Assembly: GCA_008125075.1 (NCBI GenBank) | Contig: VLTH01000003.1 | Span: forward strand, 593,398-657,397 | Direction: 5' to 3' | From: Acetivibrio alkalicellulosi | Lineage (GTDB): Bacteria; Bacillota; Clostridia; Acetivibrionales; Acetivibrionaceae | Length of the DNA stretch: 64,000 nucleotides | Shown: piece by piece, positions 2,981 to 48,651 of the stretch | Layout of the letters: the number at the start of each line of letters is the position of its first letter | How positions within the stretch are numbered: the stretch's first letter is position 1 | Program-made: the position numbers and the translations under genes | The notes under the pieces: generated by a model | What the model was told of the DNA's origin: nothing | What the model saw: the letters and a program-made list of their open reading frames with translations, nothing else | Database searches by the model: none

Positions 2981-3268
2981 TTAACATGAATCAGCTCTCT
3001 CCAGTACTCTTATAGCATCTATCTTAGCCAAAGAAAGAAGAAACTCTTTATCATTATCAACCCTTACTTTTACAGCATCATCACAATTAACATCATAATC
3101 TTCAGCAGCATAATTATCTGTTACAACTTCATATGTCAATGACTCTTGAGAAGACCTTTCTAATACCTGGTTAAATTCTTCCTCATTATCATTATAGAAG
3201 AACTAATCATCTTCAAATTCAGCGTTTATGTTTTCACGCAAGGTTTCTTCCTCAGTATCAAATGTCAT
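2981..3268 (-). pseudogene. fragment sharing its 5' part with the amidoligase pseudogene
   Basis: From an ATG at 3268 the frame reads MTFDTEEETLRENINAEFEDD and then meets a stop (TAG) where the copy at 973-1103 has a sense codon. Without the stop it continues through NQVLERSSQESLTYE, diverges at 3128, and ends VLERADSC at 2981. The last ~50 residues (DDAVKVRVDNDKEFLLSLAK and onward) are unrelated to the amidoligase. It is a chimeric, decayed fragment, not an expressed gene. Confidence 0.65.
3128..3258 (-). repeat. 131-bp duplicated segment, copy 2
   Basis: Near-identical to 973-1103, with differences that include the substitution creating an in-frame stop. The two copies flank the secreted-protein pair at 1365-2882 as direct repeats, a configuration that could arise from or promote recombination. 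Confidence 0.9.
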
Positions 3269-7728: not shown

Positions 7729-7773
7729 GGTGTATATAGGTGTTGAATAAACCATATTTTTAAGAAAAGTCAA

Positions 7774-7874
7774 TTAGGATTGATTAAAATACAACTTCAC
7801 TACTATTTCACTGCAGGCCGTATTTGATGCCAAATAGGCTCCGTGAAAAGTGGAATATTTCAGATAATTCTTAA
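7774..7874. repeat. family-1 palindromic intergenic repeat
   Basis: Ends TTAGGATTGATTAAAAT and ATTTCAGATAATTCTTAA are inverted relatives. The core has CACTGCAGGCC, ATTTGATGCCAAATAGGC and TCCGTGAAAAGTGGAA. It aligns over its length with 13390-13479, and in reverse with 19387-19492 and 36029-36134. Confidence 0.75.
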
Positions 7875-13318: not shown

Positions 13319-13389
13319 ATAATTAAACCTATTTTCACACAAGAAGAAATACTCTTTTTAGATGTGTGTTAATAATGAAATGTAACTAC

Positions 13390-13479
13390 TTAGGATTGCT
13401 GAAAATCTATTTCAACGGCCTTAGTTGATGCCAAATAAGCTCCGTAAAAAGTGCAAGTATTATTTCAGACAGTCCTTAA
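13390..13479. repeat. family-1 repeat with internal deletion
   Basis: Ends TTAGGATTGCTGAAAAT and ATTTCAGACAGTCCTTAA are inverted relatives. The core GTTGATGCCAAATAAGCTCC matches 7774-7874, but about 16 bp of the left core are absent. Confidence 0.75.
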
Positions 13480-19219: not shown

Positions 19220-19321
19220 TTTTATTAAAAGGTCTTTGAAGGTCAAGAAAGACTTAGGATCGAAGATGCTCTATGGATCGAGATTTTATTAGAAGTCTTG
19301 AAAGGTCGTAAAAGACGTAAA
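19220..19321 (+). repeat. family-2 two-hairpin repeat plus partial second copy
   Basis: TTTATTAAAAGGTCTTTGAA, GAAAGACTTAGGATCGAAG and GGATCGAGATTTTATT align with 25703-25773. A second partial copy (AGAAGTCTTGAAAGGTCG, AAAAGACGTAAAATCG) follows directly. The first hairpin GTCTTT/AAAGAC is kept. Confidence 0.6.
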
Positions 19322-19386
19322 ATCGAAATAAAGTTAAATTTAATAACTATATAAGAAGTACATTTTTTGAAGATGTGTTTTTTGTG

Positions 19387-24032: not shown

Positions 24033-25646
24033 ATGAAAGGTTATAAAAAAAGTGAGAAACTAATCAAGAAACTAGGTTGTTTAGTTTTTAGCCTTCTGTT
24101 TTTTTTAGTATCTAGTATGTCTGGTGTTTTTGCTAATACTAATTTTTATGAAACAGAAGAGGGTTCAATTACTTCAATAGAGATTTATGGAGACTTAAAT
24201 GGTGATGGGAAGGTAGATTCAACAGATTACATATTATTAAGAAGATATATACTTAATATTATTGATGAATTTCCCGTTGGAACTTTAAAAGTAGCTGACT
24301 TAAATGGAGATGATAAAATAAACTCTACTGATGCTATACTTATGAGAAGATATATACTAGGCATCATTGATGAATTTCCTGTTGCAATTAATCTTATATC
24401 AGGTAATATTGATGCTAATATAAAACATCAGACAATTGAAGGGTTTGGGGCATCAATTGCATTTTATCAAAACTGGCTGATAGATCATCCAAATAAGGCA
24501 GAAATATACGATGTTATATTTAATGAACTTGGATTAAGTGTCCTAAGACTTAATAATTGGTACATTACATATGAAGGTGAAACTCCATTTGACCCTTCAG
24601 CTAAAGAGATTGTTGAAGAGGCAAAAAAATCTGTAGGTGATGATTTAAAAATAATGATGTCTTCATGGTCTCCACCAACATACTTGAAATCAAATAATGC
24701 CAATGCAGGTGGAACCCTTAAAAAGGAAAATGGAGAATTTGTGTATGATAAATTTGCAGACTTCTGGTATGAATCACTAAAAGCCTATGAGGAAATTGGA
24801 ATTGTACCTAATTATATTAGCATACAGAATGAACCTGATATGGATGCAGGCTATGAATCATGTAATTTTGACCAACATGAAAATGGAAGCAATGCTGTAT
24901 ATGGAAAAGCACTTGAAGCTGTTTATAACAAACTAAATAATAATATGAATAATACACCTAAAATATTAGGACCGGAAGTTCTTGGAATTGGATATAATAA
25001 TTTAAATGGTTACATGAGAACAGTGAATATTGATCATTTAGATGGAATAGCATTTCATTTATATCATGGAGGAGACGAAAATAATCCAGATTCTTTTAAC
25101 GTTGAATTAGAAAATGTCAACAAGAATTATCCTGATATACCAAAATATCAAACTGAGTACTACCGTGGTGATGCATTTAATACTGCTTGGATTATGCATA
25201 ATACCCTTACAGTAGGTAATGTGTGTATGTATTTGTATTGGGATCTTATATGGGAAAATGGAGGGCTTGTATCACTGGAATTTCCATGGGATAGAAGTAG
25301 ATGGACGACACCAAATGGATATATTATAAGTGATAAATATTATACTTTTAAACAATATTCAAAATTTATACAACCTGGTTACACTCGTGTTGATGCATCA
25401 GTAAATTCAAATGATGTAAAAATATCAGCATATGTTTCTCCAGATGGTAAATCCATATCAGTTGTTTTATTAAATACATCATCTTCTCCTGAAACAGTGG
25501 CATTAGACTTTAATGGTTTCTCAGGGGCTAATTCGAAAATATATAGAACCAGTGACAATGAAAAAACTACATTTATTGGAAGCCTTGGTCAGGGTAATAC
25601 TGTTTATCTTCCTGCAAGATCAATAGCAACTGTTGTAATCGAATAA
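24033..25646 (+). CDS. GH30 xylanase/glucuronoxylanase with N-terminal dockerin
   Basis: The gene encodes 537 residues after GGAGGTGGAAAA. Signal peptide 1-35. The dockerin is at ~52-118 (DLNGDGKVDSTDY and DLNGDDKINSTDA loops), ahead of the catalytic domain, whereas most dockerins are C-terminal. GH30 from ~125: TIEGFGASIAFYQNWL, MMSSWSPPTYLKSN, acid/base Glu267 in SIQNEPDM, nucleophile Glu375 in YQTEYYRGD. The beta-sandwich tail is at ~440-537 (RTSDNEKTTFIGSL). Closest in look to GH30 subfamily 8 glucuronoxylanases, but the arginine that reads glucuronate was not identified. In the second dockerin loop a glycine is replaced (NGDDK). Confidence 0.9.
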   Translation: MKGYKKSEKLIKKLGCLVFSLLFFLVSSMSGVFANTNFYETEEGSITSIEIYGDLNGDGKVDSTDYILLRRYILNIIDEFPVGTLKVADLNGDDKINSTDAILMRRYILGIIDEFPVAINLISGNIDANIKHQTIEGFGASIAFYQNWLIDHPNKAEIYDVIFNELGLSVLRLNNWYITYEGETPFDPSAKEIVEEAKKSVGDDLKIMMSSWSPPTYLKSNNANAGGTLKKENGEFVYDKFADFWYESLKAYEEIGIVPNYISIQNEPDMDAGYESCNFDQHENGSNAVYGKALEAVYNKLNNNMNNTPKILGPEVLGIGYNNLNGYMRTVNIDHLDGIAFHLYHGGDENNPDSFNVELENVNKNYPDIPKYQTEYYRGDAFNTAWIMHNTLTVGNVCMYLYWDLIWENGGLVSLEFPWDRSRWTTPNGYIISDKYYTFKQYSKFIQPGYTRVDASVNSNDVKISAYVSPDGKSISVVLLNTSSSPETVALDFNGFSGANSKIYRTSDNEKTTFIGSLGQGNTVYLPARSIATVVIE

Positions 25647-25674: not shown

Positions 25675-25705
25675 AAAAGGGGGCAAAGGCCCTTTTTTGT
25701 TTTTT
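25675..25705 (+). terminator. GH30 terminator
   Basis: AAAAGGG stem pairing with CCCTTTT around a GC-rich loop, followed by TTTTTTGTTTTTTT. Strong intrinsic terminator 30 bp after the stop. Confidence 0.85.
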
Positions 25706-25773
25706 TATTAGAAGTCTTGGAACGAAGTGAAAGACTTAAAAGCGCAGGGGCTCGATGCCCCAAGCTTTTTATT
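25703..25773 (+). repeat. family-2 two-hairpin repeat
   Basis: Hairpin 1: AAGTCTT ... AAGACTT. Hairpin 2: AAAAGC-GCA-GGGGC-TCGAT-GCCCC-AA-GCTTTT. The same layout with base-pair changes on both sides occurs at 46962-47030 (outer stem AAAATCT/AGATTTT). Confidence 0.75.
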
Positions 25774-35854: not shown

Positions 35855-36155
35855 TAAATGGCACGTGCATAATATCAAATGTAAAATATATTTGTATAGG
35901 CATAAAATACCATAAAAATATGAGAGTAGTAGTTCCAATTAGTACAGGGTTTGTCAAGGTGTTTGAGCAAAATTTTATGGGTTATTTTACAGTATAAAAA
36001 TATGCTCTATGGCAATAATGATACTGACTTAAGGAATGTCTGAAATATTCTTTTTGCTTTTCGCTAGGACTTTTTTGCATCAAATAAGGGATGCAGTGAA
36101 ATAGTAGTGGAAGATATAATTTCAGCTTTCCTAAATACATTGCCGGGAGGTTTTT
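35855..36155. other. sigE-sigG intergenic region
   Basis: About 300 bp. It begins with a family-3 fragment (35857-35882: AATGGCACGTGCATAATATC on the plus strand, matching the end of 32102-32215) and ends with a family-1 repeat (36029-36134). No separate gene or confident promoter was seen. Confidence 0.5.
36029..36134. repeat. family-1 repeat upstream of sigG
   Basis: TTAAGGAATGTCTGAAATAT at the left, ATTTCAGCTTTCCTAA at the right, core TTTGCATCAAATAAGGGATG then CAGTGAAATAGTAGTGGAAG. Same orientation and length as 19387-19492. It ends 22 bp before the sigG start. Confidence 0.8.
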
Positions 36156-46583: not shown

Positions 46584-46895
46584 GTGGATATTAAAATTAC
46601 TAATACAATTGGAAGAGAATTTGGTTCTGTTTCAGGTACAAGTCTTATTGGAAACAAAAGAGATAATAACATAATTGGCAATTTTGGAGAGTATTTAAAT
46701 AATGCCATAAAAAGGGTAGATGAGCTGGAAAAAGACTCTAGAACAATAACAGAGGATTTTGCAGCAGGAAGGACAGATAACATTCATCAGGTTATGATAG
46801 CAGCTCAAAAATCTGAAATTGCTCTTCAATTTACCATGCAAATTAGAAATAAAATAATGGATGCTTATAATGAAATTATGAGAATGCAAATATAG
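46584..46895 (+). CDS. fliE: flagellar hook-basal body protein FliE
   Basis: The gene encodes 103 residues from a GTG with GGGGGG upstream. FGEYLNNAIKRVDELEKDSR, then DFAAGRTDNIHQVMIAAQKS and IRNKIMDAYNEIMRMQI match FliE. It joins the MS ring to the rod. A 190-bp gap with a family-1 repeat separates it from fliF. Confidence 0.95.
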   Translation: MDIKITNTIGREFGSVSGTSLIGNKRDNNIIGNFGEYLNNAIKRVDELEKDSRTITEDFAAGRTDNIHQVMIAAQKSEIALQFTMQIRNKIMDAYNEIMRMQI

Positions 46896-46910
46896 TAACT
46901 TTCATAAAGT

Positions 46911-47064
46911 AAGGATTAGTTTAAATATTGCTTTTACTTTTCACTGACCTATTTGGCATCAATTAAAATCTCGGGGTGTCGAGTACCTTAGATTTTAAGC
47001 CTTTCATTTGTTCTAAGACTTTTAAAAAGGCCTGTAGTGGAAGGTATATTTTCAACAATCCTAA
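46911..47064. repeat. family-1 repeat carrying an inserted family-2 repeat
   Basis: Left AAGGATTAGTTTAAATATTG, core CACTGACCTATTTGGCATCA, then after ~70 foreign bases AAAGGCCTGTAGTGGAAGGT and right ATTTTCAACAATCCTAATT. Removing 46962-47030 leaves an ordinary family-1 element in the orientation of 19387-19492. Confidence 0.78.
46962..47030 (-). repeat. family-2 repeat nested in a family-1 repeat
   Basis: On the minus strand: TTTTTAAAAGTCTTAGAACA, TGAAAGGCTTAAAATCTAAG, GTACTCGACACCCCGAGATTT. It aligns with 25703-25773. Hairpin 1 AAGTCTT/AAGGCTT (one wobble) and outer stem AAAATCT/AGATTTT differ in sequence from that copy but keep pairing. Confidence 0.72.
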
Positions 47065-47085
47065 TTATACAAAAGGGGGTATTTT

Positions 47086-48651
47086 ATGCCCGAAATAATA
47101 ACTAAAATACAAAATCAGCTTAATGATTTATGGAAAAACCTTGACAAGTCACAAAAGAATAGGATTTACATAATTTCAGCCATTCTTATGGTAGTAATTA
47201 CTGTGGGTATTATTTTGCTTACAAGAACCACATATGTTCCTCTTATGACAATTGATGACCCAAGAGATGCTTCCGAGATTGAGAGAGTTTTAAATGATAG
47301 AAATATAAAGTATAGACATGGGGATAGAGGAAGGATTTTAGTCGACTCAAGGGATAAAAACAAGGCAGAATTTGCAGTGGCCTCATCAGGATTAAATATA
47401 AGTGGAATGACTTTTGAAGATGCATGGAGTCTTCTTAGTATAAGCTCTACTGAAAGTGACAAAAAACACTTGTGGCAAAATTTTAAAAAAAATAGTTTGG
47501 TAGCAAAACTTAAAATGTTTGATAATGTTAGAGATGCTGATGTAGACCTGGCCTTACCAGAGGAATCTATGTTTTTTTCTGGAAGTTCAGTCAGGGAAGC
47601 AACGGCATTTGTTAGAATCACACCAAGAGGAGAAATCACTTCAGAGCAGGTAAATGGAATAGTTCAAGTAGTTGCATCTTCAATTGAAGGCTTAAATCCT
47701 AAAAATGTTACAGTTGTAGACAATAATTTTAATATTTTGAATTCTGATATGGCAGGTGCAATGAATGTGCCTTCAAGTCAGTATAAACTTACCCTTAAGG
47801 TTAAAGAAGACTTAGAAAGAAACATTAAAATGTTATATGCAGGAAGATCAAATAACTACGACTTTATAAGTGTTGTTGCAAACCCTGTCTTAGATTTTGA
47901 TCAGGTTACAACTAAAAGAAATGAGGTTGCAAAACCTACTGACTTAGATGAAGCTATTGTAAGTAGTCAAACTACTAAAGAGACATTAGAAAATATTGGG
48001 CCGGGAAATCTTGCTCCAGGTATGGATGCAAATCCTGGAGTTGGAGAAATACCTGAGTATCCAATGGGCGGGGGAGAAAATTCTTCTTATGAAAAAAAGA
48101 GTGAAATAATAAATAGAGTTTTTACTGAGATTTTGACACAGGAAGAAAGGGCTATTGGCACCTTAAATCCAGAGAGATCTTCAATGACAGTTGCACTGTG
48201 GTATGGTCAAAGAGTTACTGATGACTCTAATATAACTCCGGAATTTATAGATCAATTAAGAGCAGACGTAAGTACAGCTACAGGAATTCCAGCAGCAAGA
48301 ATATCAGTAAGTAAATATCCTTTAGCTCCTATAGAAGAAATTATAGAACCTTTAAGTGAAAGAATAAAAAGATTTGTGGACACTTATGGTTTCTTTATAA
48401 TAATGATTTTACTTATCATATCTTTGATGATTGCTGTAATGGTAAAGAAAAAAGAGCAGGAAGAGACAGTACCCGAACTTGCTACAGCAGGGGGGCCTTC
48501 TATTGCTATGGCTGAAATAGAAAATGAAATACAAGAAATTGATATGGAAGAACGTTCAGAAGTTAAGAAACAGATTGAAAAATTTGTTAAGGAAAAACCA
48601 GAGGCAGTTGCAAGTTTACTTAGAAACTGGCTTTCAGACGATTGGGATTGA
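47086..48651 (+). CDS. fliF: flagellar MS-ring protein FliF
   Basis: The gene encodes 521 residues after AAAGGGGGTATTTT. Transmembrane segments at ~25-45 (IYIISAILMVVITVGIILL) and ~433-455. YscJ-like domain with LLSISSTESDKKHLWQNFKK region and DVDLALPEESMFF; then the beta-collar region ending GEIPEYPMGGGE. The C-terminal ~35 residues (EKPEAVASLLRNWLSDDWD) bind FliG. It forms the membrane ring and export-gate housing. Confidence 0.97.
   Translation: MPEIITKIQNQLNDLWKNLDKSQKNRIYIISAILMVVITVGIILLTRTTYVPLMTIDDPRDASEIERVLNDRNIKYRHGDRGRILVDSRDKNKAEFAVASSGLNISGMTFEDAWSLLSISSTESDKKHLWQNFKKNSLVAKLKMFDNVRDADVDLALPEESMFFSGSSVREATAFVRITPRGEITSEQVNGIVQVVASSIEGLNPKNVTVVDNNFNILNSDMAGAMNVPSSQYKLTLKVKEDLERNIKMLYAGRSNNYDFISVVANPVLDFDQVTTKRNEVAKPTDLDEAIVSSQTTKETLENIGPGNLAPGMDANPGVGEIPEYPMGGGENSSYEKKSEIINRVFTEILTQEERAIGTLNPERSSMTVALWYGQRVTDDSNITPEFIDQLRADVSTATGIPAARISVSKYPLAPIEEIIEPLSERIKRFVDTYGFFIIMILLIISLMIAVMVKKKEQEETVPELATAGGPSIAMAEIENEIQEIDMEERSEVKKQIEKFVKEKPEAVASLLRNWLSDDWD

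Follow-up and report, generated by a model that had tools for sequence, protein, structure and literature searches.

A dockerin-bearing GH30 gene ends at position 25646 of the window, the 64-kb stretch of Acetivibrio alkalicellulosi contig VLTH01000003.1 that was analyzed. It is followed by a terminator-like hairpin and by the best-kept of three window copies of a two-hairpin repeat, Family-2 (Table 1). The core of this copy is about 64 bp long and is flanked by two TTTTATT boxes. Its hairpin 2 resembles a terminator with its own T run. All three copies, the partial tandem copy behind the one at 19220 and the stem sequences in Table 1 were found as the initial annotation had described them. 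The hairpin test described below found no hairpin upstream of the copy at 19220. The window also contains a direct repeat of 131 nt (973-1103 and 3128-3258, 98% identity, 2155 bp apart).

Table 1. Family-2 copies and associated features in the window.
Feature	Coordinates	Strand	Remarks
Hairpin with T run, intrinsic-terminator-like	25675..25699	+	Directly upstream of Family-2 copy; -20.0 kcal/mol
Family-2 element, best-kept window copy	25703..25773	+	Covariance model 101.1 bits
Hairpin 1	25712..25737	+	Stem AAGTCTT/AAGACTT; conserved loop GGAACGAAGTGA
Hairpin 2	25738..25769	+	Outer stem AAAAGC/GCTTTT, inner stem GGGGC/GCCCC; conserved TCGAT loop
Family-2 copy, degraded	19220..19290	+	69.2 bits; stem GTCTTT/AAAGAC
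Tandem second unit	19284..19331	+	3'-truncated; hairpin 1 present, hairpin 2 gone
Family-2 copy, degraded	46961..47030	-	68.8 bits; nested in MITE-B, between fliE and fliF; AAGTCTT/AAGGCTT with one G-T pair, AAAATCT/AGATTTT
MITE-B without Family-2 element, natural empty site	7798..7850	+	
MITE-B without Family-2 element	36057..36109	-	
MITE-B without Family-2 element, partial	13417..13456	+	

Folded as RNA, the copy at 25703 has an energy of -22.6 kcal/mol and a z score of -3.35, matched by none of 200 shuffles. Folded as DNA, its z score is -3.9. The other two copies are degraded, with RNA-fold z scores of -1.23 and -1.05, and the three window copies alone are therefore no proof of structure. 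The initial annotation held that the two sides of a stem change together, and a larger alignment without covariation had been named beforehand as the result that would speak against this. We counted two-sided changes in an alignment of 76 matches, 74 of them distinct, from 68 hand-picked sources among the fetched loci. They occur at 12 of the 18 pairs, a number reached in 2 of 500 shuffles, in an alignment that leans towards structure because it was fitted to the covariance model, itself built from 11 copies. The covariation score of the 74 distinct copies is 0.342 versus 0.131 in the shuffles, none of which (0/500) reached it, and 94.1% of cells are paired versus 81.7% in the shuffles. The score falls to 0.013-0.088 when the partners are slid by 1-3 columns. 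For stem 1, the window's genome has AAGTCTT/AAGACTT, A. mesophilus and A. straminisolvens have GCCTCTT/AAGAGGC, and one copy of the related genome G005 has GCTCCTT/AAGGAGC. The hairpin-1 loop, GGAAYGAARTGAAA, is largely constant across these differing stems, and so is the TCGAT loop of hairpin 2. The top strand has 107 G-U and 70 A-C pairs, counted as cells and not as events, a weak hint that it is the folding strand.

A DNA search with the region around the copy at 25703 gave 59 matches in its own genome (5.3 Mb, three contigs; best non-self E 1e-28). The genome search with a two-stem model that the initial annotation had called for gave at least 150 covariance-model matches there (E up to 0.018), a lower bound because no more than 150 candidates were scored. 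In this genome, C1:497.3k, C1:581.5k and C3:510.6k hold arrays in which the repeat recurs every 63-64 bp. Matches at E 0.001 are present in 15 of 60 genomes, the own genome included. Family-2 is numerous in seven relatives from the same family, for which the counts are lower bounds with at most 83 candidates scored per genome: at least 17 in G002, 78 in G005, 82 in G006, 39 in G008, 34 in G009, 53 in G011 and 83 in G013. A. mesophilus has 111 model matches. At E 0.001, G007, G001 and G012 have one match each, and G003, G004 and G010 have none. A laxer search of G003, G004, G007, G010 and G012 gave weak matches only, some resembling decayed copies. Four genomes from other families of the order have one or two matches each, and a second covariance model, run on 58 members of the order, confirmed that Family-2 is nearly confined to the bacterial family of the window. 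An exact consensus pattern scan of named genomes, which may omit records close to the window's own genome, gave 48 matches in 46 stretches, all in A. straminisolvens, A. mesophilus and two Clostridiaceae MAGs. No match was found in viral contigs with one exact consensus pattern, in plasmids with the copy at 25703 as the query, or in phages with an A. straminisolvens copy as the query. The window has no Rfam match at gathering scores, and lax thresholds on one copy gave sub-threshold matches only. No description of the Family-2 repeat or of terminator-directed IS200 elements was found in searches of openly licensed papers.

Family-2 is located at intrinsic terminators, a feature that the initial annotation missed. 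Placement was scored as a hairpin of at least 5 bp and -8 kcal/mol or better that ends no more than 10 nt from the left edge of the element on the same strand. Such a hairpin lies immediately 5' of 67 of 71 sampled copies in A. mesophilus, mostly the best-scoring of its 111, with about 40 lower-scoring ones outside the sample. It is found at 47 of 50 sampled copies in A. straminisolvens/DTU079, whose loci were fetched with a strict consensus pattern, and at 31 of 74 in the own genome, which are the matches in the loci scanned out of at least 150. Three controls were scored: the stretch further upstream, the mirror image on the downstream side, and the downstream stretch on the same strand. In that order they gave 7, 4 and 4 of 71, 5, 5 and 6 of 50, and 9, 2 and 10 of 74. 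The set of 71 comes from 73 matches after removal of a duplicate place and a partial match; the set of 50 comes from 56 after removal of two from another species, three partial matches and one with a short flank. When the own-genome copies are classed by text patterns, the hairpin is present in 27 of 50 solo copies, 4 of 4 tandem copies and 0 of 20 copies that lie within two other small repeats. Inspection by eye shows that at least four of the 'solo' hairpins (L031, L042, L048, L082) belong, as hairpin 2, to a Family-2 copy further upstream and that two 'solo' rows (L107, L092:1479) appear to be nested.

Junctions were analyzed for 113 copies that passed the anchor filter, 106 of which have a hairpin of -8 kcal/mol or better. 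In Acetivibrio, 105 of the 106 differ in sequence, and a T-rich spacer of 9-13 nt separates the upstream hairpin from hairpin 1 in 73 of them. The T box alone does not explain the placement, because only 23 of 173 intergenic element-free TTTTATT sites in the same loci have such a hairpin (25 of 300 for all sampled sites). Where an upstream gene on the same strand exists, the median gap from its end is 74-75 nt in Acetivibrio and 109 nt in the own genome. The nearest upstream gene is on the opposite strand for 23 of 74 copies in the own genome, 7 of 27 in A. mesophilus, counted on loci of sufficient length, and 4 of 51 in a third set. Copies inside open frames of at least 100 codons number 3 in the own genome, 2 in A. 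mesophilus and 1 in the third set.

Comparison of A. mesophilus with A. straminisolvens revealed three empty sites (L155/L138, L302/L164 and L152/L185), at which the terminator is intact without the element and no target duplication is visible. These were accepted only from alignments read by eye, and the automatic empty-site flags contain errors. In a fourth case, L185/L152, the flanks have diverged and there is no clear terminator. In the alignment of L143 with L182, one species has two copies, and its additional copy seems to have been inserted between the terminator and the older copy. Family-2 has no terminal inverted repeats and its two ends differ, with one hairpin near each. The right end, GCTTTTATT, repeats the T-rich box of the left junction. 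ATT follows GAGCTTTT there at 83-92% per position. The left box is more variable, with a consensus of a T run plus ATTTG and an A at -5 in only 60%.

Two larger repeats contain Family-2. Some copies of MITE-B, which has the ends TTCCACT.../...AGTGGAA, contain a nested Family-2 and others lack it, and the junction appears to be always the same (window 46850-47150, 7760-7870, 13380-13470 and 36040-36140; L088, L109, L114, L118 and L120). MITE-A is about 200-230 bp long, with ends AAGTGAAGAAA/TTTCTTCACTT; it carries Family-2 and seems to have spread with it (L049, L050, L051, L053, L089, L113 and L119).

We propose, with a probability of roughly 0.55, that Family-2 is a non-autonomous, PATE-like 64-bp element that is moved in trans by a Y1 transposase and whose insertion is directed to terminators. 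Its near-identical scattered copies and the empty sites indicate that it was probably mobile recently, and it most likely has no job at a single site. It is a candidate member of the PATE class, since no parent IS sharing its ends turned up. The initial annotation had left a choice between selection on structure and upkeep of inverted repeats during spread; the evidence favors the latter, with structure kept while a mobile repeat spreads. Family-2 would travel in the form of single-stranded DNA, with a Y1 (HUH) transposase like that of IS200/IS605 elements as the enzyme. The enzyme would bind hairpin 1 as the left end and hairpin 2 as the right end and cut after TTTTATT, and the element would be joined 3' of the terminator T run. 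The target and the right end each have a TTTT complementary to the AAAA between the hairpins, and this AAAA could act as a guide of the IS200/IS605 type. Landing behind terminators breaks no gene and would therefore explain the high copy numbers. In the own genome, part of the copies may have spread passively, inside the two larger MITEs and by local tandem amplification.

IS200-type elements have the same address, and for this reason we favor, with moderate confidence, a Y1 transposase that acts in trans. Among 13 IS200-type loci of the same family whose left end could be read, 10 have a hairpin directly 5' on the same strand, versus 2 of 13 for a control stretch further upstream; the left ends were set by eye, and 7 of the 13 loci belong to a single IS that is present at separate sites in G007. 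At L216 and L222 the hairpin is slightly further off by eye. IS200-type elements behind terminator-like hairpins were seen at L196, L203, L208, L219, L195, L202, L197, L199 and L205. A point against this preference is that the known targets of IS200/IS605 elements are short sequences, not hairpins. We consider it possible, if somewhat doubtful, that IS200-type transposons and their 64-bp passenger recognize the terminator hairpin, or the paused transcription bubble, and not a fixed sequence. If true, this would be transposition aimed at gene ends, the DNA-transposon counterpart of group IIC introns. In the G007 IS, the hairpin downstream of tnpA holds 14 bases, GAACGAAGTGAAAG, of the hairpin-1 loop region; as one independent hit in about 240 kb scanned, this could be chance.

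Y1_Tnp matches are present in 8 of 13 relatives. Of the genomes that carry Family-2, G000, G002, G005, G006, G008 and G011 have such a match. None was found in A. straminisolvens G013, a draft of 87% completeness with at least 83 copies, or in G009, which has at least 34 copies and an estimated completeness of 100%; these two absences count against a Y1 driver. A repeated IS easily drops out of a draft genome. Conversely, Y1 matches number three in G010, where Family-2 is represented at best by a single weak copy (E 0.003), and ten in G007, where all copies are weak, with one below E 0.001 and 16 at E values of up to 1. The own genome contains an IS605-type tnpA, a tnpA fragment and three longer Y1 genes, and the Y1_Tnp search saw no IS200-type gene in it. 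The gene-type names IS605, RAYT and tnpB are those we presume from Y1_Tnp matches and size. No full-length Family-2 flanks a Y1 or reverse transcriptase (RT) gene in 75 Y1/RT loci; a G011 copy lies about 900 nt from a Y1 gene, and a weak G002 match (E 0.027) is cut off by the contig end. Among the 13 relatives, RVT_1 matches are absent in G008, G010 and G011. Neither gene strictly tracks Family-2, since Y1 is missing in G013 and G009, and RVT_1 in these three.

The pattern of truncation also counts against a Y1 transposase. In A. mesophilus, 15-mer searches with one mismatch allowed gave 75 hits for hairpin 1 and 58 for hairpin 2. The right part is missing in 12 of the 75 and the left part in 2 of the 58, of which one right-end hit was left unread (Fisher p 0.02), a bias that a two-ended HUH reaction does not predict. 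These calls come from 34 left-end and 17 right-end apparent singles, 22 and 15 of which had the other end with more than one mismatch. By eye, 8 of the 12 3'-truncated copies stop at the boundary between hairpins 1 and 2, and most of the 12 are behind a terminator or another copy (C88:19840 is ambiguous). The window unit at 19284 belongs with them. Of the two copies with 5' loss, one may be a product of decay, because the sister species also has a copy there. The polarity of truncation is the main point in favor of a copying mechanism and is unexplained by simple two-ended cut-and-join. We also considered the truncated copies as left ends of an autonomous element and rejected this: the largest downstream frames of 10 of the 12 have no transposase by Pfam. 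These frames start within 900 nt downstream, or about 1.3 kb on for L259; eight correspond to a MoxR ATPase, a RhuM/EcoR124 fragment, an aminotransferase, RecJ, YmdB, a cytidylyltransferase, GH94 and an amidase, and two have no Pfam family.

Copying is the core of a retro-element explanation, which we regard as unlikely. Here an antisense RNA with an A-rich 3' end, AAATAAAA, would be copied by target-primed reverse transcription from the nicked terminator T run, in the manner of a group IIC intron, and the truncated copies would be unfinished cDNAs. The fixed end at the terminator and the variable other end agree with this, as does the landing place, which is the same as that of class C group II introns in the accessible text of two reports (PMC8919778, PMC3898094). 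However, no RVT_1 match is present in G008 (at least 39 copies) or G011 (at least 53), and G004 and G007, with 4 and 12 RT matches, have no or only weak Family-2 copies. Neither the window nor the element has an Rfam group II intron match. The excess of G-U over A-C pairs on the top strand is opposite to that expected of a folded antisense RNA, although strand-biased mutation could mimic it. Group II introns were rejected as the driver: RT genes do not track Family-2, and the model finds no copy at ten own-genome RT loci (best E 0.2). Matches to the RNA families RT-5 and RT-14 were seen beside reverse-transcriptase genes at L237:1127-1228 and L231:1120-1275 (G005, A. straminisolvens).

Alternatively, Family-2 might have been recruited to terminators as a functional RNA or DNA, for instance a back-up terminator or 3' boundary, with selection keeping it at each site. 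We find this improbable. The terminator-like hairpin 2 with its T run fits such a role, and structure and loops are strongly conserved. At ten sites filled in both A. mesophilus and A. straminisolvens, the element is also more conserved than its flanks, with 606 of 710 positions identical versus 331 of 466 in the 45 bases before it and 325 of 506 in the 50 behind, but orthology is doubtful for two or more of the ten pairs, and higher identity can stem from reinsertion at the same terminator. Against per-site selection, some copies at these common sites have decayed in different ways, and a neighboring species lacks a copy at the same terminator. In addition, Family-2 is missing at E 0.001 from G003, G004 and G010, and 20 of 74 own-genome copies were sorted as nested in other repeats, where no such upstream hairpin is found.

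Finally, a REP/REPIN-type repeat spread by the longer Y1 transposases of the own genome is very unlikely: hairpin repeats in intergenic regions and three own-genome Y1_Tnp genes of 257-268 aa, which we take to be RAYT-like from their size, would suit it, but the hairpin foot of the consensus has neither GTAG nor CTAC, and RAYT-like genes were rejected as the driver because the one at L011 is flanked by its own, different repeat and A. mesophilus, with 111 matches, has a single Y1 gene of IS200 size and none of RAYT size. The repeat at L011 is an inverted repeat around GGGACGGTTCTTGAATTGAATTT, at L011:1289-1315 and about 2278-2308.

To our knowledge, few mobile elements target transcription terminators. 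Family-2 is a small, easily synthesized substrate for asking whether an HUH transposase reads a terminator hairpin. It would also aid the annotation of gene 3' ends in cellulosome-forming bacteria.

The known systems closest to Family-2 include the IS200/IS605 elements and their palindrome-associated derivatives, the PATEs. In the accessible text of PMC7290912, IS200/IS605 elements have no terminal repeats, make no duplications, carry a hairpin at each end and insert 3' of a short motif. Family-2 is similar to them and to PATEs in having a hairpin near each end, no terminal inverted repeat and no target duplication. It appears to be inserted 3' of a short T-rich motif, with a similar motif at its right end, where the class uses a fixed tetra- or pentanucleotide. 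The local IS200-type copies also have the same terminator address. Unlike these systems, the target of Family-2 includes a generic terminator hairpin, and no IS with its ends was found; at 64 bp, it is also smaller than the PATE-like case in the part of that report available to us. REP/REPIN repeats are likewise high-copy intergenic hairpin repeats with tandem arrangements. However, the E. coli REP requires a GTAG foot, according to the accessible text of PMC8266576. Family-2 has no such foot, a different repeat lies beside the RAYT-like gene at L011, and Family-2 has one orientation at terminators. In staphylococci, IS1272 inserts at terminator stem-loops without target duplication, as described in the available part of PMC4923244, but it has inverted repeats and deletes part of the stem-loop. 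Insertion of the IS1272 kind was ruled out for Family-2 because the terminators are intact at its empty sites. Class C introns insert right after intrinsic terminators in the portions available of PMC8919778 and PMC3898094. Family-2 is likewise inserted directly after intrinsic terminators, a membership feature of group IIC introns; unlike them, it is only 64 bp long and has no RT, and no Rfam match to the group II domains D1-D6 was found in it. By analogy, Family-2 appears to work as a PATE does while landing where group IIC introns insert.
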